Source: Candidatus Sulfotelmatobacter sp. (GTDB lineage Bacteria > Acidobacteriota > Terriglobia > Terriglobales > Acidobacteriaceae). From it: 64,000 bases of DNA. Below are positions 1,263-61,160 of this stretch, in pieces (the first letter of the stretch is position 1; every line of letters begins with the position of its first letter). The DNA lies in contig JASHOH010000036.1 of the NCBI GenBank assembly GCA_030041215.1, positions 1 through 64,000 on the forward strand, in the 5' to 3' direction. A program made the position numbers and the translations under genes. Below the pieces are notes generated by a model. It made no database searches, was not told where the DNA came from, and saw only the letters and a program-made list of their open reading frames with translations.

Positions 1263-1436
1263 TGTAGCGACAGCCGCCCTCGGCTGTCCGGCTACAGCCA
1301 CCCCTTTGCGGTAGGGCGGCACTTTAGCGCCGCATGTCCTCGCCTGATTGTGGCGCCGGAATTTGGGGTGGCGCACCGCTTCAGCGCTACGATCAGCGAT
1401 AATTTCTTATTCACGGGGCTTCAGCCCCTTAGGAAC
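1263..1436 (+). repeat. Cluster of palindromic repeats before and inside the 5' end of hom
   Basis: A copy of the 28-bp 'gacagccgccctcggctgtc' family lies at about 1264-1290. It is followed by three short hairpin modules of the form N6-TTTAG/TTCAG-N6': 'ggcggcactttagcgccgc', a diverged copy near 1365-1385, and 'ggggcttcagcccc' near 1417-1430. The same modules recur at 27.2, 30.4, 34.5 and 42.3 kb. The cluster fills the whole gap up to the conserved part of homoserine dehydrogenase and supplies its only usable start codon. Confidence 0.8.
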
Positions 1437-2900: not shown

Positions 2901-4259
2901 ATGATGAATATTCATATGCCGGTCACTGAAATCACCGCCCCCTCCCTCGACTTGGCCTCCATCCGCTCCCAATTTCCCTCGCTCGCCCAAACCGTCCACG
3001 GTTATCGCGCCGTCTTTTTCGATGGGCCGGGAGGCACGCAGGTTCCGCAGAGCGTGATCGATGCCATCTCGAACTATCTGCGTTGCGACAACGCCAACAC
3101 GGGCGGAGCCTACCAGACCAGCCGCCACACCGACGCCATGATCGCTGACGCCCGTGCCGCCATGGCCGACTTCCTCAACTGCGCCGCCGACGAAATCATT
3201 TTCGGCCCGAACATGACTTCGCTCACTTATATGATGTCGCGCACCGTCGGCCGCGAGCTTGAACCCGGCGACGAAATCCTGGTTACGCGCCTCGATCACG
3301 ACGCCAATGTTTCTCCCTGGCTGGCACTTGAAGAGAAAGGCGTCACCATCCGCTGGGCCGAGATTCATCCCGAAGATTGCACGCTCGATGTCGAAGACCT
3401 CGAGGCGAAGCTCAGTTCAAGAACGAAGCTCGTTGCTGTGGGCTATGCTTCGAATGCGGTGGGAACGATCAATCCTGTCAAAGAAATTGTTCGCATCGCC
3501 CACGCCGCCGGAGCGCTCGTCTACGTTGACGCAGTTCACTACGCTCCGCACGGGCTGATCGATGTGGCCGGTCTCGATTGCGATTTCCTCGTCTGCTCGA
3601 CCTACAAATTTTTCGGACCGCACATGGGCGTGCTCTATGGAAAGCGCGAGCATTTGCAGCGGCTGCGTCCATACAAAGTTCGCCCGCTTACTGAAGCCGT
3701 CCCCTTCCGCTGGGAGTGGGGCACGCTGAATCATGAGTGCATTGCGGGAATTACGGAATGTGTAAATTACTTCGCCGATCTGGGACGCCAGGAGAATCCC
3801 ACTTCTCGCAAAAGCGGCGAGTCCGGGATGCCCCACCCAACGCGCCTTTCGTTGGGTGGAACTGGAGACGTGGGAACCCGCCGCGCCGCCATCGTTTCCG
3901 CCTTCGAGCAAATCCACCGCTACGAGCACGGATTGATGGGCCGCCTCATGGCCGGACTGAAAGAAATTCCGAAGTTAAAGATATACGGCATCACCGATCC
4001 CGATTGCTTCAACTGGCGCTGCCCCACGCTCGCCCTCCGCATAGCAAATCCAACCGCCGAGCAGACACCGCTCGCCCTCGCCACAAAACTCGGCGAACGC
4101 GGCATCTTCACCTGGGATGGGAACTATTACGCGCTGAACCTAGCGGAGCGGCTTAATGTAGAAAAAACCGGAGGATTCCTGCGCATCGGACTCGTCCATT
4201 ACAACACGATGGAAGAAGTCGACCGCCTATTGGAGGCCTTGCCAGAAATCATCCGTTAG
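2901..4259 (+). CDS. Cysteine desulfurase-like PLP enzyme (aminotransferase class V) with repeat insert
   Basis: This is a fold-type I PLP enzyme of the class V / NifS-like group. Visible are the substrate loop 'DGPGGTQVP' (41-49), 'NTGGAYQTSRHTD' (66-78), 'DHDANVSPW' (132-140), the PLP aspartate in 'VYVDAVH' (D210) and the Schiff-base lysine in 'CSTYKFFGP' (K236). The sequence resembles the VC1184-type branch, whose physiological role is not settled; it lacks the usual SufS/IscS active-site cysteine loop. Start choice is open between the two adjacent ATGs at 2901 and 2904 and one at 2916. Residues 297-327 are a repeat insert that preserves the frame. It is convergent with the kinase gene, with four bases between the two stops. 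Confidence 0.8.
   Translation: MMNIHMPVTEITAPSLDLASIRSQFPSLAQTVHGYRAVFFDGPGGTQVPQSVIDAISNYLRCDNANTGGAYQTSRHTDAMIADARAAMADFLNCAADEIIFGPNMTSLTYMMSRTVGRELEPGDEILVTRLDHDANVSPWLALEEKGVTIRWAEIHPEDCTLDVEDLEAKLSSRTKLVAVGYASNAVGTINPVKEIVRIAHAAGALVYVDAVHYAPHGLIDVAGLDCDFLVCSTYKFFGPHMGVLYGKREHLQRLRPYKVRPLTEAVPFRWEWGTLNHECIAGITECVNYFADLGRQENPTSRKSGESGMPHPTRLSLGGTGDVGTRRAAIVSAFEQIHRYEHGLMGRLMAGLKEIPKLKIYGITDPDCFNWRCPTLALRIANPTAEQTPLALATKLGERGIFTWDGNYYALNLAERLNVEKTGGFLRIGLVHYNTMEEVDRLLEALPEIIR
3789..3882 (+). repeat. In-frame insert of the 'cccacttctcgc' hairpin family inside the cysteine-desulfurase-like gene
   Basis: A reverse-oriented copy of the hairpin family also seen at 32588-32628, 39974-40013 and 63509-63553 begins with 'cccacttctcgcaaaagcgg' and runs into 'ggatgccccaccc'. 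A second short palindrome, 'cccaacgcgcctttcgttggg', follows. Together they add about 30 residues between 'NYFADLGR' and 'RRAAIVSAFEQI', two stretches that look contiguous in this kind of enzyme. Confidence 0.75.
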
Positions 4260-13322: not shown

Positions 13323-14249
13323 TTATGGGGTCACGATCTTCAGAGCGGCTCGATGCACGCTGATCTCCACCGGGGTGCGGCAGACGAATTCGCCGTCGGC
13401 ATAAATGTCGAGTGGGCTCTCGGTTTCCACTCGCAGGCGCTCAGCGCGGAAGTATTCGACGCCTGTGATCTTCAGATGGCGGCCGGAATAGACCGTAGGA
13501 AACATGCAGAACAGCTTGAGCGCATCAATGCCGGCGATCACGCAAACGTCAAGTTCACCATCGTCAACCTTTGCTTGCGGCGCGATCTTCATGCCGTCGC
13601 CGTAAGTGGAGGCGTTGGCGAAAGCGGCAAGAATTGTTGGTTTGTTGCTTCGGATCGTCCACGAGGACGCGGCATCAGGAATTGAAATCTTCGTCGGAAT
13701 GGGCGCAAAACGAAAAACTGTTGGAAGCACGGTGAGTGCATAGCCGCCGTGTCCGCGCAGCCAACGCGGCAGTTCGTTCGCGCGGCGCGCCACTTCGCTG
13801 CTCAGGCCGATCCCGGCCACGGTGCAGAAGTAGCGAGCGCTGAGTTGGGCGTGTTCAGTCGTGCCGTGCGCGGCCGAATGTGCAACTGCTTTTTCGATTA
13901 ATGGAGAGATGCTTCCGACATCGATGACCCGGACATTATTCTGATGTTCGCAAAATCTCCGCCATGCATTCAGCGAATTGCGGACACCTCGCATCCCGAG
14001 CGCGCGGGCGAAATCATTTCCGCTGCCGGCAGGAACGATGAGCACGGGGAGCGCAAGTTTAGCTAACTGACTGAGATGCCGATGAATCGTGCCGTCGCCG
14101 CCAAAGAGCAGAACGACGTCGGCCCGATCGCTTGCCGCAGGCAATCCGATGCGCCAATCGATTTGGAACGAGGATTTTCGTGCGATGCTCTGAAACGGTT
14201 CGAGAGACTTCGTAGAACACCCCAGCCCGAATATGACCGCCGCGCGCAT
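13323..14249 (-). CDS. Diacylglycerol kinase-like lipid kinase (YegS/LCB5 family)
   Basis: The protein has the ATP-binding signature 'LLFGGDGTIHRHLSQL', then 'VPAGSGNDFARALG', and a C-terminal domain with 'TVAGIGLSSEVARRANELP', 'NASTYGDGMKIAPQAKVDDGELDV' and 'YADGEFV'. These mark soluble lipid kinases that phosphorylate diacylglycerol or related lipids. The frame is open for another 118 codons upstream to 14603, but that part is translated repeat (for example DSRPRLSGRA and AGQPRAAVPTW). The start is therefore set at ATG 14249 (MRAAVIFGLG), giving 308 residues. The N-terminal strand is followed directly by the kinase core, as expected. Confidence 0.85.
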   Translation of the reverse strand: MRAAVIFGLGCSTKSLEPFQSIARKSSFQIDWRIGLPAASDRADVVLLFGGDGTIHRHLSQLAKLALPVLIVPAGSGNDFARALGMRGVRNSLNAWRRFCEHQNNVRVIDVGSISPLIEKAVAHSAAHGTTEHAQLSARYFCTVAGIGLSSEVARRANELPRWLRGHGGYALTVLPTVFRFAPIPTKISIPDAASSWTIRSNKPTILAAFANASTYGDGMKIAPQAKVDDGELDVCVIAGIDALKLFCMFPTVYSGRHLKITGVEYFRAERLRVETESPLDIYADGEFVCRTPVEISVHRAALKIVTP

Positions 14250-14328: not shown

Positions 14329-14518
14329 GTAGGGACAGCCGCCCTCGGCTGTCCGGCGGGGCGAAGCCGCGCGGCGGTTTTGATTGTAGCGAGAAGAGCC
14401 TCAATGCCCAGCTGTTCAGGGAAAGTTTTGTTGCTGTTCGTTCCAACTTGGGAATTAAGCAGGGCGCTGGCACCGGCGAGCTGCGCTCGCCCGGACAGCC
14501 GAGGGCGGCTGTCCCTAC
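14329..14518. repeat. 190-bp composite element with 28-bp perfect terminal inverted repeats
   Basis: Positions 14329-14356 and 14491-14518 are exact reverse complements, 28 of 28 bases; each end is itself the palindromic 'cagccgccctcggctg' family unit. The 134 bases between them carry no stop-free gene of their own that looks real. The element sits between the lipid-kinase gene and tyrS. Transcribed, it would form a very long hairpin. Confidence 0.85.
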
Positions 14519-15868: not shown

Positions 15869-16435
15869 ATGAAGCCACCGATTCATATTCGAAAGGCGAC
15901 CGCAAAGGACATTCCGCGCTTGCGCGAGGTGATCGAGGTGTCAGTGCGCGGCTTGCAGGCCGCAGACTATTCGCCCGCGCAAATTGAAGGAGCGCTGAAG
16001 TCAGTCTATGGCGTCGACAGTCAGCTCATTGCCGATGAAACGTACTTCGTTGCTGAAATCGAGTCGCAGGAAGGCAAACCCACGATCGTTGCCTGCGGCG
16101 GATGGAGCAAACGAAAAACTCTGTATGGAGGTGATCAGTTTGCAGCGCGTGAAGATTCGCTGCTCGATCCGTCCCGCGATGCCGCGAAGATTCGCGCGTT
16201 CTTTGTGCATCCCAACTGGGCGCGCCGCGGCATCGGCGGAATCATTCTGGAAGCCTGCGAGAAAGCGGCCCTGGACGCCGGATTCACTCGCCTTGAGATG
16301 GGGGCAACTTTGAGCGGCGTGCCTTTTTATCGAGCCAAGGGGTATGAGGAAATCGAAAATCAGGCAGCGCCGCTAGGGAATGGTGAAGTATTGCCGATCG
16401 TGCGAATGGGGAAGCAAGTGGGATTGCGGCGTTAG
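15869..16435 (+). CDS. GNAT family N-acetyltransferase
   Basis: A 188-residue acyl-CoA transferase. The core has 'IRKATAKDIPRLREVIEVSV' at the N-terminus, 'IRAFFVHPNWARRGIGGIILEACEKAA' (acetyl-CoA pyrophosphate loop R/Q-x-x-G-x-G/A as RRGIGG) and 'LEMGATLSGVPFYRAKGYEEIE' at the end, all in the expected order. The substrate cannot be predicted. It is divergent from tyrS with a 69-base gap. A diverged copy of the 28-bp repeat family follows the stop. Confidence 0.88.
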   Translation: MKPPIHIRKATAKDIPRLREVIEVSVRGLQAADYSPAQIEGALKSVYGVDSQLIADETYFVAEIESQEGKPTIVACGGWSKRKTLYGGDQFAAREDSLLDPSRDAAKIRAFFVHPNWARRGIGGIILEACEKAALDAGFTRLEMGATLSGVPFYRAKGYEEIENQAAPLGNGEVLPIVRMGKQVGLRR

Positions 16436-16526
16436 AGCTTATGTAGGGACATCCGCCCTCGAAAGCCTGCCCTGAGCAAGCGGAGCGCGCCGATGGGTCC
16501 GGGCGAGCGCAGCTCGCCTCCCGGTA

Positions 16527-18440: not shown

Positions 18441-18523
18441 GTAGGGACAGCCGCCCTCGCTGCCAAACAGAAGGGAACATGTAGGGACAGCCGCCCTCGG
18501 CTGTCCGGTCGAGCGAAGCTCGA
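18441..18523 (+). repeat. Two direct copies of the 28-bp palindromic family
   Basis: A truncated copy (18441-18463) and a full copy (18481-18508) both begin 'gtagggacagccgccctcg'. The full copy is followed by the hairpin 'tcgagcgaagctcga' (18509-18523). The same pairing of unit plus hairpin occurs at 32534 and, with 'cggagcgaagctccg', at 42266. Confidence 0.8.
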
Positions 18524-18605
18524 CGGCACGCCTGCTAAGTCGGTCTGATACGACACTACAAGCTGTTCCACGGGTGCGCGCACCCGTTCGTCACCGCCGT
18601 CTTAA

Positions 18606-27118: not shown

Positions 27119-27201
27119 AGATGTTTTGCAGGGGCGCGGCTTCAGCCGCGGCGTTAGGTGATTAGTTCGCGACCGCTTTCGCCGCTGAGAAATGCTGCAA
27201 C

Positions 27202-27354
27202 TTGCTTTTGGGTGGCGCAGGCCTTCAGGCCTGCGATGTGAGGTCTTAAATATTGGAACTGGGCTTTAGCCCCTGAGGTACCTCGGCGGCTAAAGCCGCT
27301 GAAATAAAAGGATGCTGGATCGCAGCGCTGAAGCGCTACGCCACCCAAAAGCAA
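27202..27354. repeat. 153-bp element with 16-bp perfect terminal inverted repeats between actA and actB
   Basis: The ends 'ttgcttttgggtggcg' (27202-27217) and 'cgccacccaaaagcaa' (27339-27354) are exact complements. Inside are four short hairpin modules: 'gcaggccttcaggcctgc', 'gggctttagccc', 'gcggctaaagccgc' and 'agcgctgaagcgct'. Another module, 'gcgcggcttcagccgcgg', precedes it near 27133. Together they fill the 247-base gap inside the operon. Confidence 0.85.
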
Positions 27355-27365
27355 TTTAAATAGAT

Positions 27366-32508: not shown

Positions 32509-33273
32509 ATGATCAACCTCCGGCAGAATCCGTGTGGGGACAGCCGCCCCCGGCTGTCCGGTCGAGCGAAGCTCGACAGTACCGTTGTGGGGTGCCCCAC
32601 TTCTCGCCGCTTTTGCGAGAAGTGGGAATCTGTGAACAGAGGGACTGGGACGATTTTGGCTATCGTCTTCATCGCTTTTCTCACGTCCTGCCGCATCGAC
32701 ATGCACGTGCAGCCGCGCCAGAATCCACTTTCCCGCAGCGCGTTCTTCCCCGACCAACGCTCCGAACGCCCACTCGTCGAGGGCACAGTCGCCCGCGGCC
32801 AATTGCGCGTCGACACATATTTCTATAGCGGCCGAATCGGCAGCGCTCTCGGCGACTACATGCCCTTCCCCGTCACCAAAGAAGTTCTCGAGCGCGGCCG
32901 CCAACGCTACAACATTTACTGTTCACCTTGCCACTCGATTTTGGGCGATGGCAATGGCTTCGTCCCTTCACGCGGGTTTTCGGAGCGCCCGCCGTCGTAT
33001 CACATTCCCCGCCTGCAAAAAGCTCCTTTGGGATACTTCTTCGACGTCATGACCAACGGCTTCGGCATCATGCCCGACTACCGTTCACAGATTGAGCCGG
33101 AGGATCGCTGGAAAATTGTGGCCTACATCCGAGCGCTGCAACTCAGTCAAAACGCAACTCAGTCCGACGTGCCCTCTGGACACGCGATTCCGTCGCAGCC
33201 TCCAAAATTTCAGTTAGGATCAGGAGCAACTTTGCCTGTCATTGAAAGCGGGCCCACAGAGGAGCACAAATGA
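32509..33273 (+). CDS. actE: Alternative complex III subunit ActE, monohaem cytochrome c lipoprotein, with repeat-derived N-terminus
   Basis: A single haem site, 'YCSPCHSI', with 'GDGNGFVPSRGF' and a possible distal Met in 'TNGFGIMPDY' defines a class I cytochrome c. The signal peptide with lipobox, 'ILAIVFIAFLTSC', starts only at residue about 48. Before it, residues 9-41 are translated repeat (DSRPRLSGRA and then PTSRRFCEKW). The start ATG at 32509 touches the actD stop, which suggests it is the ancestral start and that repeats inserted after the first eight codons. GTG at 32632 (VNRGTG) would give a normal short lipoprotein leader and may be the start now used. Confidence 0.9.
   Translation: MINLRQNPCGDSRPRLSGRAKLDSTVVGCPTSRRFCEKWESVNRGTGTILAIVFIAFLTSCRIDMHVQPRQNPLSRSAFFPDQRSERPLVEGTVARGQLRVDTYFYSGRIGSALGDYMPFPVTKEVLERGRQRYNIYCSPCHSILGDGNGFVPSRGFSERPPSYHIPRLQKAPLGYFFDVMTNGFGIMPDYRSQIEPEDRWKIVAYIRALQLSQNATQSDVPSGHAIPSQPPKFQLGSGATLPVIESGPTEEHK
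32531..32630 (+). repeat. Two repeat families inserted in the 5' end of actE
   Basis: A 28-bp family copy (32534-32561) is followed by the 'tcgagcgaagctcga' hairpin. Next comes the 'cccacttctcgc' hairpin, with perfect 12-base arms at 32596-32607 and 32615-32626. No stop arises in the actE frame. Confidence 0.85.
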
Positions 33274-39973: not shown

Positions 39974-40013
39974 GGGGTGCCCCACTTCTCGCCTCTTTTG
40001 CGAGAAGTGGGAA
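39974..40013 (+). repeat. 'cccacttctcgc' family hairpin in the leader of the FAD/Fe-S dehydrogenase gene
   Basis: Perfect 12-base arms at 39981-39992 and 40000-40011 surround a 7-base loop and are preceded by 'ggggtg'. This is the same unit as in actE (32588-32628) and the cysteine-desulfurase-like gene. Confidence 0.85.
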
Positions 40014-40072: not shown

Positions 40073-43000
40073 ATGTCCAGCACTTTTGTCGAGTCGCCTT
40101 CTACAAAATCAACCCTACCTGTGGACGCCTTCGCCCTTGCCGAATCCCTGCGCGCCACGATCCAGGGCGAAGTCCGCTTCGATTCGAGCGCCCGCGCACT
40201 CTACGCCACCGATGGCTCCAACTACCGCCAGGTCCCGATCGGCGTCGTCATTCCGCGCGACAACGACGATGTTGAATCCACTGTCGCCCTCTGCCGCGAA
40301 TTCGGCGCGCCGCTTCTCTGCCGTGGCGGAGGCACTTCGCTCGCCGGCCAATGCTGCAACGTCGCCGTCGTTCTCGATTTCTCGAAGTACATGAACTCGA
40401 TCCTCGAGATCGATCCGACCCGCCGCATCGCCCGCGTGCAGCCCGGAGTCATCCTCGATCATCTCCGCGCCGCCGCCGAAAAGCACCATCTCACCTTCGC
40501 TCCCGACCCAGCCACCCACGACCGCTGCACGCTCGGCGGCATGATCGGCAACAACTCCTGCGGCGTCCACTCCGTCATGGCCGGCAAAACTGACGACAAC
40601 ATCGAGGCGCTCGAAGTCCTCACCTACGACGGCGTGCGCATGAAAGTCGGCCCAACACCGAGTTCGGAACTCGAAAGCATCCTCCGCGAAGGCACCGTCC
40701 GTGGCCAGATTTATACCAATCTAAAAACCATTTCAGACAAATACGGCGATCGCGTTCGCAGCGGATTTCCCAACATTCCCCGCCGCGTCTCCGGCTACAA
40801 CTTGCAATATCTTCTTCCGGAAAACGGCTTCCACGTTGCCCGCGCGCTCGTCGGCTCGGAAGGAACCTGTGTCACGATTCTCGAAGCTACCTGCCGTCTC
40901 GTCCAAAGCCCTCCCGAGCGCGTGCTTCTGGTTCTCGCGTATCCCGATGTGTACCAGTGCGCCGACCATGTCCCCGAAATCATGCAGCACAAGCCCATCG
41001 GACTCGAAGGTTTTGACGATCTCCTCGTCCACTACACGCGCGTGAAAAAAATCAACTCCGAGGGCCTCGCGCTTCTTCCCGATGGCGGAGGATGGCTGCT
41101 GGTCGAATTCGGCGCGCAAACCGCCGCCGAAGCCGAATCGCAAGCCCGCGGATTGATGCAGTCGCTCGCTCGCACCGCCAACCCTCCCCAGATGCGCCTC
41201 TGCGACAAGAATCAGGCAAAGCTCGTCTGGGTAGTTCGTGAGTCCAGCCTCGGCGCAACTTCGCACGTCCCCGGCGAAGACCTCAACTGGGAAGGCTGGG
41301 AGGACGCCGCCGTCGCTCCCGAAAAACTCGGCGGCTATCTTCGCGATCTGCGAAAGATGTTCGCCGCCTACGGCTATAAAGGTTCCCTCTACGGGCACTT
41401 CGGCCACGGCTGCGTGCACACGCGCATCAACTTCGATCTGCAATCGAAAGAGGGCATCGCCAAGTTTCGCCGCTTCATGGAAGAAGCCGCCGATCTTGTC
41501 GTCAGCTATGGCGGATCGATCTCCGGCGAGCACGGCGACGGTCAGTCCCGCGGCGAACTATTGCCGAAAATGTTCGGGCCGGAATTAATGCAGGCGTTTC
41601 GTGAATTCAAATCGGCCTGGGATCCCGCATGGAAAATGAATCCAGGCAAGCTCATCGATCCCTACAAGCTCGATGAAAACTTACGCCTCGGTGCGAACTA
41701 TGCTCCATGGGAGCCGGAAACTCATTTCAAGTTCGAAGCCGACCACGGCAGCCTCGCCGAAGCCACGCTGCGCTGCGTGGGCGTAGGCAAGTGCCGCCAC
41801 TCCGAAGGTGGCGTGATGTGCCCGAGCTATCGCGCCACGATGGAAGAAGAACACTCCACTCGCGGCCGAGCTCATCTTCTCTGGGAAATGACACAACGCG
41901 AAGTCATCCGCGATGGTTGGCGCAGCGAGGAAGTGAAAAAGTCGCTCGACCTCTGCCTCGCCTGCAAAGGCTGCAAAAGCGACTGCCCCGTCGGCGTCGA
42001 CGTCGCGACGTACAAATCCGAATTTCTTTCTCACTACTACGAAGGCCGCGTGCGCCCCGTTAGCGCCTACGCCTTCGGCAATATCGATCTGTGGGCGCGT
42101 GCAGCATCGAAATTTCCAGGCCTTGTCAACCTGACCACGCAGCTTCCCATCCTGCGCGAAATTTCAAAACTCGCAGCCGGCATCCCGCTCGAGCGCTCCA
42201 TCCCCGCCTTCGCCCCAGAAACTTTCAAAGACTGGTTTTTCCGCACGCGGCCTAAAACCGATCGTGTAGGGACAGCCGCCCTCGGCTGTCCGGCGGAGCG
42301 AAGCTCCGCAGCGCCGGAGTGGAAGAGCGGCGCTTCAGCGCCGCGTCAGCGTTCTGGGTTGAATGCGGGCTTTAGCCCCAGCGATTTTGGGCGGCGCAGC
42401 GCTTCCAGCGCTGCGATTAATGCTTCCCTTTCAGAAGGGGCTTTAGCCCCTGAGGTCCTCCTCTGGCCCGACACCTTCGCCAACTACTTCCGCCCCAGCA
42501 TCGCCCAAGCCGCCACTGAAGTCCTCGAAGCCGCCGGCTTCCGCGTGCTCGTCCCCAAGCCTCACCTTTGCTGCGGACGCCCCCTCTACGACCACGGCAT
42601 GCTCGATCGCGCGAAATCGCTGCTGCTGCAAATCCTCGACACCCTCCAACCCGAAATCGAAGCCGGCATCCCTGTCGTCGGACTCGAACCAAGCTGCGTC
42701 GCCGTCTTCCGCGACGAGCTTGTCAATCTCTTCCCGCACGACGAGCGTGCCCAGACGCTCTCGCGTCAGACTTTCCTACTCAGCGAATTCCTCGAAACTT
42801 ACGCTAAAGATTCCCCGCTGCCGCGCCTGAACCGCAAAGCCCTGCTCCACGGCCACTGCCATCAGAAATCGATCATGAAGATGACCGCCGAAGAATCCAT
42901 CCTGCGGCGCATCGGTGTCGACTTCACCATTCCCGCGCCCGGATGCTGCGGCATGGCCGGCTCGTTCGGCTTCGAGCGCGACAAGTATGATGTGTCGGTC

Positions 43001-43312
43001 GCCATCGGCGAGCTCGAACTCATGCCCGCCGTGCGCCATGCCCCGGATGACTGGCTGATCATCGCCAACGGCTTCAGTTGCCGCGAACAGATCGCCCAAG
43101 GCTCAGATCGTCAAGCTCTGCACCTGGCCGAAGTTCTGCAAATGGCTTTGAACGGTGAACAATTGCTGGATGGCGACCGTTACCCCGAATCGGCGCTTAC
43201 CCGCCGCCATGAACGGGAGGTGAAGCGATCGATGCAGCGTGCTGGAGTGGGACTTGCGGCAGTCGCGGCGGGCGTGGCTGTTCTGTGGGCGTTCAGTAGA
43301 AAACAAACTTAA
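40073..43312 (+). CDS. FAD-linked oxidase fused to Fe-S (GlcD-GlcF-like) dehydrogenase
   Basis: A 1,079-residue fusion. The N-terminal half is a VAO-type FAD enzyme: 'LLCRGGGTSLAGQCCN', 'GMIGNNSCGVHSVMAGKT', 'GSEGTCVTILEA' and 'GHFGHGCVHTRIN' with 'GEHGDGQSRGELL'. Then come two [4Fe-4S] motifs ('CRHSEGGVMCPSYRAT' and 'CLACKGCKSDCPVG') and two CCG domains ('CCGRPLYDHGM' and 'CCGMAGSFGFE'). It resembles glycolate or D-lactate dehydrogenases that pass electrons to the quinone pool; the substrate is not certain. A C-terminal hydrophobic helix ('LAAVAAGVAVLWAF') may anchor it. The start at 40073 has AAGGAG eight bases upstream. About 65 residues near 729-793 are a repeat insert. Confidence 0.9.
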   Translation: MSSTFVESPSTKSTLPVDAFALAESLRATIQGEVRFDSSARALYATDGSNYRQVPIGVVIPRDNDDVESTVALCREFGAPLLCRGGGTSLAGQCCNVAVVLDFSKYMNSILEIDPTRRIARVQPGVILDHLRAAAEKHHLTFAPDPATHDRCTLGGMIGNNSCGVHSVMAGKTDDNIEALEVLTYDGVRMKVGPTPSSELESILREGTVRGQIYTNLKTISDKYGDRVRSGFPNIPRRVSGYNLQYLLPENGFHVARALVGSEGTCVTILEATCRLVQSPPERVLLVLAYPDVYQCADHVPEIMQHKPIGLEGFDDLLVHYTRVKKINSEGLALLPDGGGWLLVEFGAQTAAEAESQARGLMQSLARTANPPQMRLCDKNQAKLVWVVRESSLGATSHVPGEDLNWEGWEDAAVAPEKLGGYLRDLRKMFAAYGYKGSLYGHFGHGCVHTRINFDLQSKEGIAKFRRFMEEAADLVVSYGGSISGEHGDGQSRGELLPKMFGPELMQAFREFKSAWDPAWKMNPGKLIDPYKLDENLRLGANYAPWEPETHFKFEADHGSLAEATLRCVGVGKCRHSEGGVMCPSYRATMEEEHSTRGRAHLLWEMTQREVIRDGWRSEEVKKSLDLCLACKGCKSDCPVGVDVATYKSEFLSHYYEGRVRPVSAYAFGNIDLWARAASKFPGLVNLTTQLPILREISKLAAGIPLERSIPAFAPETFKDWFFRTRPKTDRVGTAALGCPAERSSAAPEWKSGASAPRQRSGLNAGFSPSDFGRRSASSAAINASLSEGALAPEVLLWPDTFANYFRPSIAQAATEVLEAAGFRVLVPKPHLCCGRPLYDHGMLDRAKSLLLQILDTLQPEIEAGIPVVGLEPSCVAVFRDELVNLFPHDERAQTLSRQTFLLSEFLETYAKDSPLPRLNRKALLHGHCHQKSIMKMTAEESILRRIGVDFTIPAPGCCGMAGSFGFERDKYDVSVAIGELELMPAVRHAPDDWLIIANGFSCREQIAQGSDRQALHLAEVLQMALNGEQLLDGDRYPESALTRRHEREVKRSMQRAGVGLAAVAAGVAVLWAFSRKQT
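42262..42455 (+). repeat. ~195-bp in-frame repeat cluster inside the FAD/Fe-S dehydrogenase gene
   Basis: It consists of a full 28-bp family copy (42266-42293), the hairpin 'cggagcgaagctccg', then modules 'gcggcgcttcagcgccgc'-like, 'gggctttagcccc', 'cagcgcttccagcgctg' and 'ggggctttagcccc' (42437-42450). It is translated as low-complexity Ala/Ser/Arg-rich sequence between 'WFFRTRP' and 'EVLLWPDTFANYF', without a stop. Confidence 0.88.
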
Positions 43313-60823: not shown

Positions 60824-61160
60824 AGGTCGGGTGGGACAGCAGCCACAAGGTTCAAAAAAGAACTAACGCGGAGGGTATTTGCTTACGAGGCGAGTGGTAC
60901 GAGCAGTGGACAGACTAGGTAGTACCAAATCGGGCATTGACAGGTACCGCTGCGTCCCTTTTCGAAAGCCATGTAGAGAGAGCCGCGGTCGCCTGCCCTG
61001 AGCAAAGTCGAAGAGGCTGCCAGCGGGGCGAAGCTCCGCAGATGCCTGCTCAGCGCGCGGGTGGACGGAGGGAACCCTGGCGCGAGCGCCCAAAACCCTG
61101 AGAGGCTTGGTAAATTGAGAGGCGGTCAGCCTGGCATTGTGGCGCTTATAAGGAAGAGAT
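60824..61160. other. Gene-free gap with degenerate repeats
   Basis: A diverged copy of the 28-bp family starts near 60971 ('catgtagagagagccgcggt'). It is followed by 'ccctgagcaaagtcgaag' and 'ggggcgaagctccgcag', the same pair seen at 14357 and 42294. Nothing else is recognised: no promoter, RNA or protein frame with family likeness. The region joins the decayed polysaccharide locus to the ABC ATPase gene. Confidence 0.5.

Follow-up and report, generated by a model that had tools for sequence, protein, structure and literature searches.

A REPIN of GTRG-tagged REPs in Candidatus Sulfotelmatobacter, with copies in frame inside conserved genes

GTAG-tagged REPs are palindromic repeats for which both copies inside genes and an association with RAYT genes have already been described, and some of their dimers carry small stem-loops at the ends of the spacer, as far as the available part of that work covers them (Di Nocera et al., 2013, PMC3733652). 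The numbers of REPINs, together with the presence of RAYT, are treated in the accessible portion of a later study (PMC8049555, 2021). Among titles and abstracts retrieved from the open-licence PMC literature, which included the available parts of PMC3733652 and PMC6006769, none concerned this REP family of Sulfotelmatobacter or the synonymous freezing of REPs. Here we describe an element at positions 14329-14518 of a 64,000-nucleotide stretch of a Candidatus Sulfotelmatobacter genome (hereafter, the window). Our reading, to which we assign a probability of roughly 0.9, is that it is a REPIN made of RAYT-mobilised GTRG REPs, that the genome around it holds an orphan population of these repeats, and that some copies sit in frame within genes as near-constant DNA.

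An earlier note on this DNA, made from the sequence alone, had described an element of 190 bp with perfect ends of 28 bp, and the ends bear this out, with 14329-14356 and 14491-14518 being exact reverse complements. The element consists of two copies of one palindromic unit in an exact head-out arrangement, and the two REPs with a structured spacer (14375-14472, without strand) make up the 190 bp. The REP on the plus strand (14329-14374) has its GTAG head at 14329-14332, its first hairpin at 14333-14354 and an imperfect tail hairpin that ends at about 14372; the facing copy on the minus strand (14473-14518) has its GTAG head at 14515-14518, its first hairpin at 14493-14514 and a tail hairpin with GGCGAGC arms at 14475-14491. 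When the 190 nt were folded as single-stranded DNA, a stability of -62.9 kcal/mol was obtained (z = -7.3), which none of 200 shuffles equalled. The order within each unit is GTRG, GGACAGCCG-loop-CGGCTGTCC, about two bases, and a second (tail) hairpin. The 28-bp unit recognised earlier is therefore a real repeat, but the true unit is longer, as the tail hairpin comes after it.

Head and first hairpin are almost invariant across 179 copies, both having been included in the search pattern, and the foot, also part of that pattern, has a composition of 0.99, 0.99, A 0.30 or G 0.70, and 0.99 at its four positions. Among loci of the window's own genome retrieved by the core alone, 12 of 14 start with GTAG or GTGG, the unpaired foot of the GTAG super-family. 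Tail stems of at least 5 bp are present in 130 of the 179 copies, compared to 15 of 179 shuffled tails, and 48 distinct tail arm strings were counted among the 179, some of them different in length only. In 37 copies chosen by hand for a tail in the standard register, paired changes yielded 35 double-changed cells, a count that none of 500 shuffles reached (8.5 in these), and in these same copies the first hairpin is without any variation. The sequence of the tail hairpin varies while its pairing is retained. Most loops of the 130 tailed copies are GAA (64), GCA (15) or AAA (12), and triplet loops of this kind are highly stable in DNA. Taken together, the unit is a GTRG-tagged REP and the element is a REPIN, that is, a pair of REPs arranged head-out.

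The copies of the unit that had been reported from the window were all recovered, at 1264 (one mismatch), 14329, 14491 (inverted), 18481, 32534 (two mismatches) and 42266, as were the partial copy at 18441 and the decayed copies at 16441 and 60971. A single REP (1264-1291, plus strand) lies 12 bases past a PNPOx-family gene (853-1251), and a decayed REP (16441-16518, plus strand), with a tail-type hairpin at 16502-16518, directly follows a GNAT gene (15869-16435). Tandem REPs, also on the plus strand, occupy 18441-18526, with the full copy at 18481-18526, and another decayed REP with a tail-type hairpin is found at 60971-61041 (plus strand). The REP at 32534-32579 (plus strand) is followed by a palindrome of another family at 32589-32628; a longer ORF (32509-33273) would take in both, and we read them as intergenic if the next gene starts at the GTG at 32632, a lipoprotein-like start.

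Beyond the window, the expectation of a dispersed family with a shared consensus held. The host genome (5.03 Mb in 251 contigs, the window being part of contig C161) contains 65 core matches with at most two mismatches, compared to none for a reversed-pattern control, as befits a REP of the GTAG super-family, a short palindrome in many dispersed copies. With the foot included in the pattern and one mismatch allowed, matches were present in 36 of 37 genomes of this genus of soil bacteria and in none of 24 genomes that represent other genera within the order and class. In a GTDB scan, the matches listed (80 of 119 stretches) come from Terriglobia/Acidobacteria assemblies, several of them titled Candidatus Sulfotelmatobacter, the exceptions among those listed being L082 (Oscillospiraceae) and L127 (Ca. 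Acidiferrum). The Oscillospiraceae record, outside Acidobacteria, contains four direct copies of GTAGGGACAGCCGTCCCCGGCTGTCC about 410 bases apart (L082:4087-5341).

Neighbouring copies have a strongly biased arrangement. Among 195 copies, 29 pairs lie within 1 kb of each other, of which 20 are head-out, none is head-in and 9 are tandem (head-out versus head-in, p = 2e-6), giving the over-represented inverted head-out doublet that is expected of a REPIN; L082 with its four tandem matches and L015, a duplicate of the window, were left out of this count and of the unit composition, and one head-in pair was met outside the count, in LpxB of G002 (L405). With up to five mismatches allowed, the copies in the window's genome include head-out pairs of 190, 438 and 112 bp and a single tandem pair. 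Three head-out pairs of 167-186 bp from the soil assemblies AA130 and SRVP_4 (L075, L081 and L092) have inner sequences that are alike by eye, which suggests that the pair may move as a unit.

The earlier note had proposed a search of the genome for a RAYT gene. A cognate RAYT exists in relatives, and none was found in the window's genome. This genome has six Y1/RAYT genes, among which the best match to the cognate protein is 46% identical and has another palindrome beside it. In an initial set of 76 Y1/RAYT loci, these six included, no gene is directly flanked by the REP; at three of the 76 a REP copy lies about 0.4-1.2 kb off, and many RAYTs of the genus have other palindromes at their sides. 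The cognate gene was found by searching RAYT proteins against repeat-bearing loci, with the first match in G001, where a RAYT of 164 aa has the REP directly on both sides. Orthologues of at least 72% identity are present in seven of 45 genus genomes, one of them (G015) with an in-frame TGA, and REPs stand on both sides of the gene at all seven loci (L219-L225, two at contig ends). The G001-type protein narrowly passes NF047646 (REP_Tyr_transpos; 80.8 bits, cut-off 80), scores 31.2 bits with PF01797, and has the motifs DHVH (HUH), WQ and a tyrosine. Its closest solved structure, by sequence (E 0.0011) and by fold (E 5.6e-7), is 4er8, which shows a RAYT, taken here to be TnpA_REP of E. coli, in complex with a REP hairpin; the fold match is moderate (TM 0.55, rmsd 9.7, 20% identity in the structural alignment). 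These features mark the cognate RAYT as a Y1/HUH transposase with the REP-RAYT signature.

More distant RAYTs have palindromes of their own. L226, L227 and L240 are accompanied by a variant that is one loop base shorter, and others by palindromes of the GACCGGGTC, GGGCGGACG or GACGGACAC type, several with GTRG or GTAG heads; with RAYT relatives paired in this way to differing palindromes, repeat and RAYT seem to diverge together. REP copies per genome have a median of 70 with a RAYT orthologue (n = 6) versus 21 without (n = 31; one-sided p = 0.01), in raw counts that are uncorrected for genome completeness and kinship and that leave G063 aside. For the window's genome, the pairing of RAYT and REP is proposed from its relatives.

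Other palindrome families occur alongside. A second (CCCCACTTCTCGC...GCGAGAAGTGGGG) is present in the window at 32589-32628, 39974-40013 and 3793-3821 and at C202:9669 (L018), and its own RAYT lies just past the window's end, flanked by inverted copies (G000:C161:65149-65448, L017). A third (GGTGGCGCAGCGCTTCAGCGCTGCGAT) is found at 1362-1394, 27199-27357, where it forms an inverted pair, and 42395-42415; in relatives it flanks another RAYT (L180, L211). Several IS200-like TnpA genes of the genus (L034-L048) are flanked by hairpins of the CCCGGCGTTGAAACGCCGGG and GCGTCCCTACGGGACGC types.

The REPIN of the window lies 12 bases from the stop of a class I tRNA synthetase gene of the Trp/Tyr type (PF00579; 14531-15799, minus strand). 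The next gene downstream (MRAAVIFGLGCS..., 13323-14249, minus strand), which forms the other border of the RAYT/REPIN site, begins 281 bases after that stop, and the site in the window contains the REPIN and no RAYT match. In G001, G004, G015, G020 and G026 (G020 by coordinates only), the RAYT is directly downstream of the Trp/Tyr-type synthetase gene. The order in four relatives looked at in detail is the synthetase stop, a REP with a GGCGAG-type tail, one or two further REPs with a GCGGAGC-type tail (GCGAAGC in G004), the RAYT and a REP; the outer tail of the window's REPIN is GGCGAGC, like that of the relatives. Across 30 synthetase loci, four have REPIN and RAYT, two the REPIN alone (G000, which is the window's genome, and G002, with a gap of 234 bases), two a single REP (G018, G023), and seven are empty, with 41-106 nt (G013, G021, G066, G022, G035, G067, G014). 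The other 15 have an unrecognised next gene or a contig end, with a REP copy near the stop in six. In G019, the 322 bases past the stop are without this repeat.

Site occupancy thus differs between relatives, from REPIN with RAYT through REPIN alone and one REP to empty, so the copies are polymorphic, as the earlier note had supposed. The empty site in a close relative that it had envisaged is seen in G013, the genome nearest to the window's, which groups with it in the LpxB tree (100/100) and has neither REPIN nor RAYT. G013 may have lost the element or never gained it, and the REPIN-only state could come before the arrival of a RAYT, rather than after its loss. No insertion event was seen, and for this REP no pair of filled and empty sites with similar flanks gave base-level resolution. 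Given an assembly of 251 contigs, RAYT absence elsewhere in the window's genome could be an assembly gap; the synthetase site itself is contiguous.

Copies had been claimed to sit within genes without ending them, and the copy at 42266 is indeed inside a real gene. It belongs to an in-frame nest (42262-42456, plus strand), in which the REP at 42266-42311 and four palindromes of other families add about 60 residues to a FAD-linked oxidase/Fe-S/cysteine-rich-domain protein of 1079 aa (40073-43312, plus strand) with domains on both sides of the insert; the nest sits between the Fe-S and cysteine-rich domains in one open frame. The FAD-oxidase match is split at the nest linker in 29 of the 39 genus genomes with a match, and among 30 such linkers all are 3n in length and 10 match motifs of such repeat families.

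Genus-wide, 61 of 169 copies with enough flank sit in an ORF with at least 60 codons on each side, copies too near a locus end being left out here and in the codon-usage counts. Using Pfam, the copy was placed inside or between domains of one protein in 18 of 30 scanned ORFs (MutS, MutS2, ValRS, GluRS, UbiD, MetH, an ABC transporter, five Mo-oxidoreductases, LpxB and others), while 2 are likely, 5 are unclear or outside a gene and 5 have no Pfam match; because the 30 were picked by hand, mostly as the longest of 67 distinct ORFs, 18/30 is not a random-sample rate. A codon-usage test was set aside, since it called only 31% of random positions coding and missed Pfam-confirmed genes, and in-gene calls were then based on open frames and Pfam in its place. 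With the threshold at its loosest, 6 of 144 copies were called coding versus 1095 of 3570 random positions, which suggests that genes contain fewer copies than random placement would put there. In the window's genome, 51 copies were examined (50 of the 65 core places and one more), of which 11 are in frame in nine genes, encoding FAD-oxidase, MnmG, UbiD, MutS2, TGT (an ORF covered in part), MutS, PAD, Mo-oxidoreductase (three copies) and LpxB; the other 40 are not each proven intergenic. LpxB and MutS queries had a single match each in this genome, so no spare copy of either was found.

The occupied positions recur among relatives. REP peptides are found at two shared sites in five Mo-oxidoreductases, decayed in some. 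Of 30 LpxB loci, 17 contain the core (in both orientations, with both in one locus), 2 a sister REP and 4 a decayed or unrecognised insert, and 7 are empty; the core is present in 10 of 30 MutS and 4 of 30 MnmG loci. All 90 linkers examined are open and 3n in length, the stops flagged in ten LpxB and MutS loci lying before the gene start or at the gene end, and a peptide spanning an in-gene insert is, for example, AELRSAGQPGAAVPT (predicted translation). A filled/empty pair, G036 and G029, is 91% identical over 900 nt and has a 78-nt in-frame difference, which represents a sister REP (GGACGGGC) different from that of the window. In L384 and L397 (LpxB) and L427 and L429 (MutS), a sister palindrome GGACGGGCG...CGCCCGTCC occupies loops that elsewhere hold the REP (in L397 it was seen by its peptide), a pattern as if one REP had replaced another. 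The four LpxB states (reverse type 10, empty 7, other 4, forward type 3) require 13 changes on the LpxB tree, in which 4 of 27 branches are starred and most are weak; clustering is confined to the forward type, with an equally low value in 2 of 500 shuffles. The left flanks of reverse-type LpxB loci are alike by eye, from which we lean towards a single ancient insertion that was later lost or replaced in places.

The reading of the REP DNA differs by gene: VGTAALGCP in FAD-oxidase, MnmG and LpxB, MWGQPPSAV in UbiD, CGDSRPPLS in MutS2, DSRGRLS in MutS and PAD, and GQPRAAVP in Mo-oxidoreductase, with a similar one in TGT, so that five readings occur in the window's genome. At fourfold sites, 20 of 419 pairwise comparisons differ within the REP of 12 reverse-type LpxB loci (4.8%), versus 2529 of 4898 (51.6%) over five segments elsewhere in the gene. 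The corresponding values for REP versus other segments are 11.9 v 59.2% in forward-type LpxB (5 loci), 12.5 v 63.0% in MutS (7 loci) and 33.3 v 67.8% in MnmG (4 loci). These loci were picked by peptide, with decayed copies absent, and synonymous sites are free of that selection; recent separate insertions would look frozen too, and the shared flanks that speak to the contrary were judged by eye. In an AlphaFold2 model of LpxB (mean pLDDT 77), the insert falls below a pLDDT of 50 at residues 30-42, where a helix precedes and a strand follows or the reverse, as do a few other short stretches of the model, and it is predicted to be an unstructured loop. Considering the differing frames, both orientations and the low synonymous difference, it looks as though the DNA, and not the peptide, is kept. 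We would give even odds to the fuller proposal that in-frame REPs in core genes such as those for LpxB, MutS, MnmG and a Mo-oxidoreductase have persisted while the genus diversified, as DNA that follows rules of its own and is nearly frozen at synonymous sites, those of the host gene being close to saturation. Under this proposal, RAYT re-copying, REP-REP conversion or selection on mRNA structure, acting on the DNA or its hairpin, would maintain the REPs, sometimes swapping them at the same codons.

Three other explanations share some of this evidence. Two inverted copies enclosing a short non-coding core, many times per genome, might be a conventional MITE with terminal inverted repeats, a DDE transposase and target-site duplication on insertion, and the earlier note had called the structure MITE-like. 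The likeness stands, in that the element is a REP pair, but most copies are single units (29 neighbour pairs among the 195), each unit is itself a GTRG-footed hairpin, and the gene that the repeats flank is a Y1 RAYT, all of which makes a DDE-type MITE highly improbable. That the repeat is instead a functional RNA or DNA hairpin (a 3'-end stabiliser, attenuator, or gyrase or nucleoid site) spread for host benefit and not mobile is unlikely, though it deserves some weight: copies at 1264, 14518 and 16441 lie a few bases past stop codons, tail pairing is kept by paired changes and in-gene copies are near-frozen synonymously. Against this, orthologous sites show presence and absence, copy number follows RAYT presence, and copies stand in both orientations and several frames in unrelated genes. 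Mobile origin and later host use are nevertheless compatible.

The in-gene copies could also be useful peptide modules, with the palindrome selected for open frames, as had been surmised earlier; the uninterrupted 3n linkers agree with this, and in several species REP peptides occupy the same loops of LpxB, MutS and Mo-oxidoreductase. The GTAG form does leave five of six frames open, as was claimed, and the GTGG form leaves all six open, but this is unremarkable and gives no support to selection for stop-free frames. Every palindrome obtained by shuffling these arms keeps at least five of six frames open, because the 5' arm contains no T, and so do 49% of random palindromes of genome GC. As stop-free frames are expected for such arms, peptides of the same DNA differ between genes, synonymous sites are near-frozen, the LpxB insert is modelled as unstructured and 7 of 30 LpxB loci are without one, we regard selection for peptide modules as quite doubtful.

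Under the reading that we prefer, RAYT-mobilised REPs, the repeats would be mobile but non-autonomous, and a dedicated RAYT would copy them in single-stranded form; by analogy with the RAYT of E. coli, it would recognise the GTRG foot and the first hairpin. The home of the RAYT would be, as in the relatives, one fixed site past the Trp/Tyr-type synthetase gene, with a REPIN upstream and one REP downstream, and the site states suggest that the window's REPIN is most likely the remnant of a RAYT cassette, with an orphan REP population left. A sizeable minority of copies lie in frame in loops of conserved proteins and vary little as DNA; given open 3n frames in genes for which no second copy was found, they are probably translated through.

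REPs, RAYTs and in-frame REPs all belong to known kinds; what surprises is that in-gene copies are orthologous and synonymously frozen. REPs are named extragenic; here a RAYT-paired family occupies orthologous positions inside core genes, in a genus with several coexisting RAYT/palindrome pairs. Filled, empty and re-filled sites provide a natural comparison for asking whether such copies are scars that the host tolerates, parts of the protein or DNA elements that are actively maintained, and the window's genome bears on the fate of a REP population after the disappearance of its RAYT. Of known transposases, TnpA_REP of E. coli (4er8) would be the nearest to the cognate RAYT, as its best match in sequence and fold with shared HUH, WQ and tyrosine motifs, at 20% identity.

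Like the REPINs described in the available parts of two studies (PMC3116915, 2011; PMC8049555, 2021), the present ones have an inverted REP doublet as their unit and a vertically inherited RAYT, and are commoner where the RAYT gene is present, as those parts report for E. coli. They differ from those in that the REPIN is also found alone where relatives keep the RAYT, and while only 14 counted 16-mers overlap genes in P. fluorescens SBW25, 11 of 51 copies do so here. Rickettsia palindromic elements, as covered by the accessible portion of PMC3733652, likewise lie in frame within genes that likely encode functional proteins, but they end in CGTC and form a super-family without a known dedicated transposase, whereas GTRG and a cognate RAYT characterise this family. 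Closest are the GTAG-tagged REPs of the same portion, which share the GTAG or GTGG foot on a short-stem palindrome, the mostly GTAG-out dimers, the RAYT association, some copies inside known genes and, probably, a location mainly between genes. In Acidobacteria, that portion names no such family, just RAYT-like genes with unrelated inverted repeats, and it reports one recB site common to two Xanthomonas species, while in other genes of a functional category the REPs stand at differing sites. In the genus described here, by contrast, many species have REPs in the same loops of several core genes, and the tail varies by paired changes.
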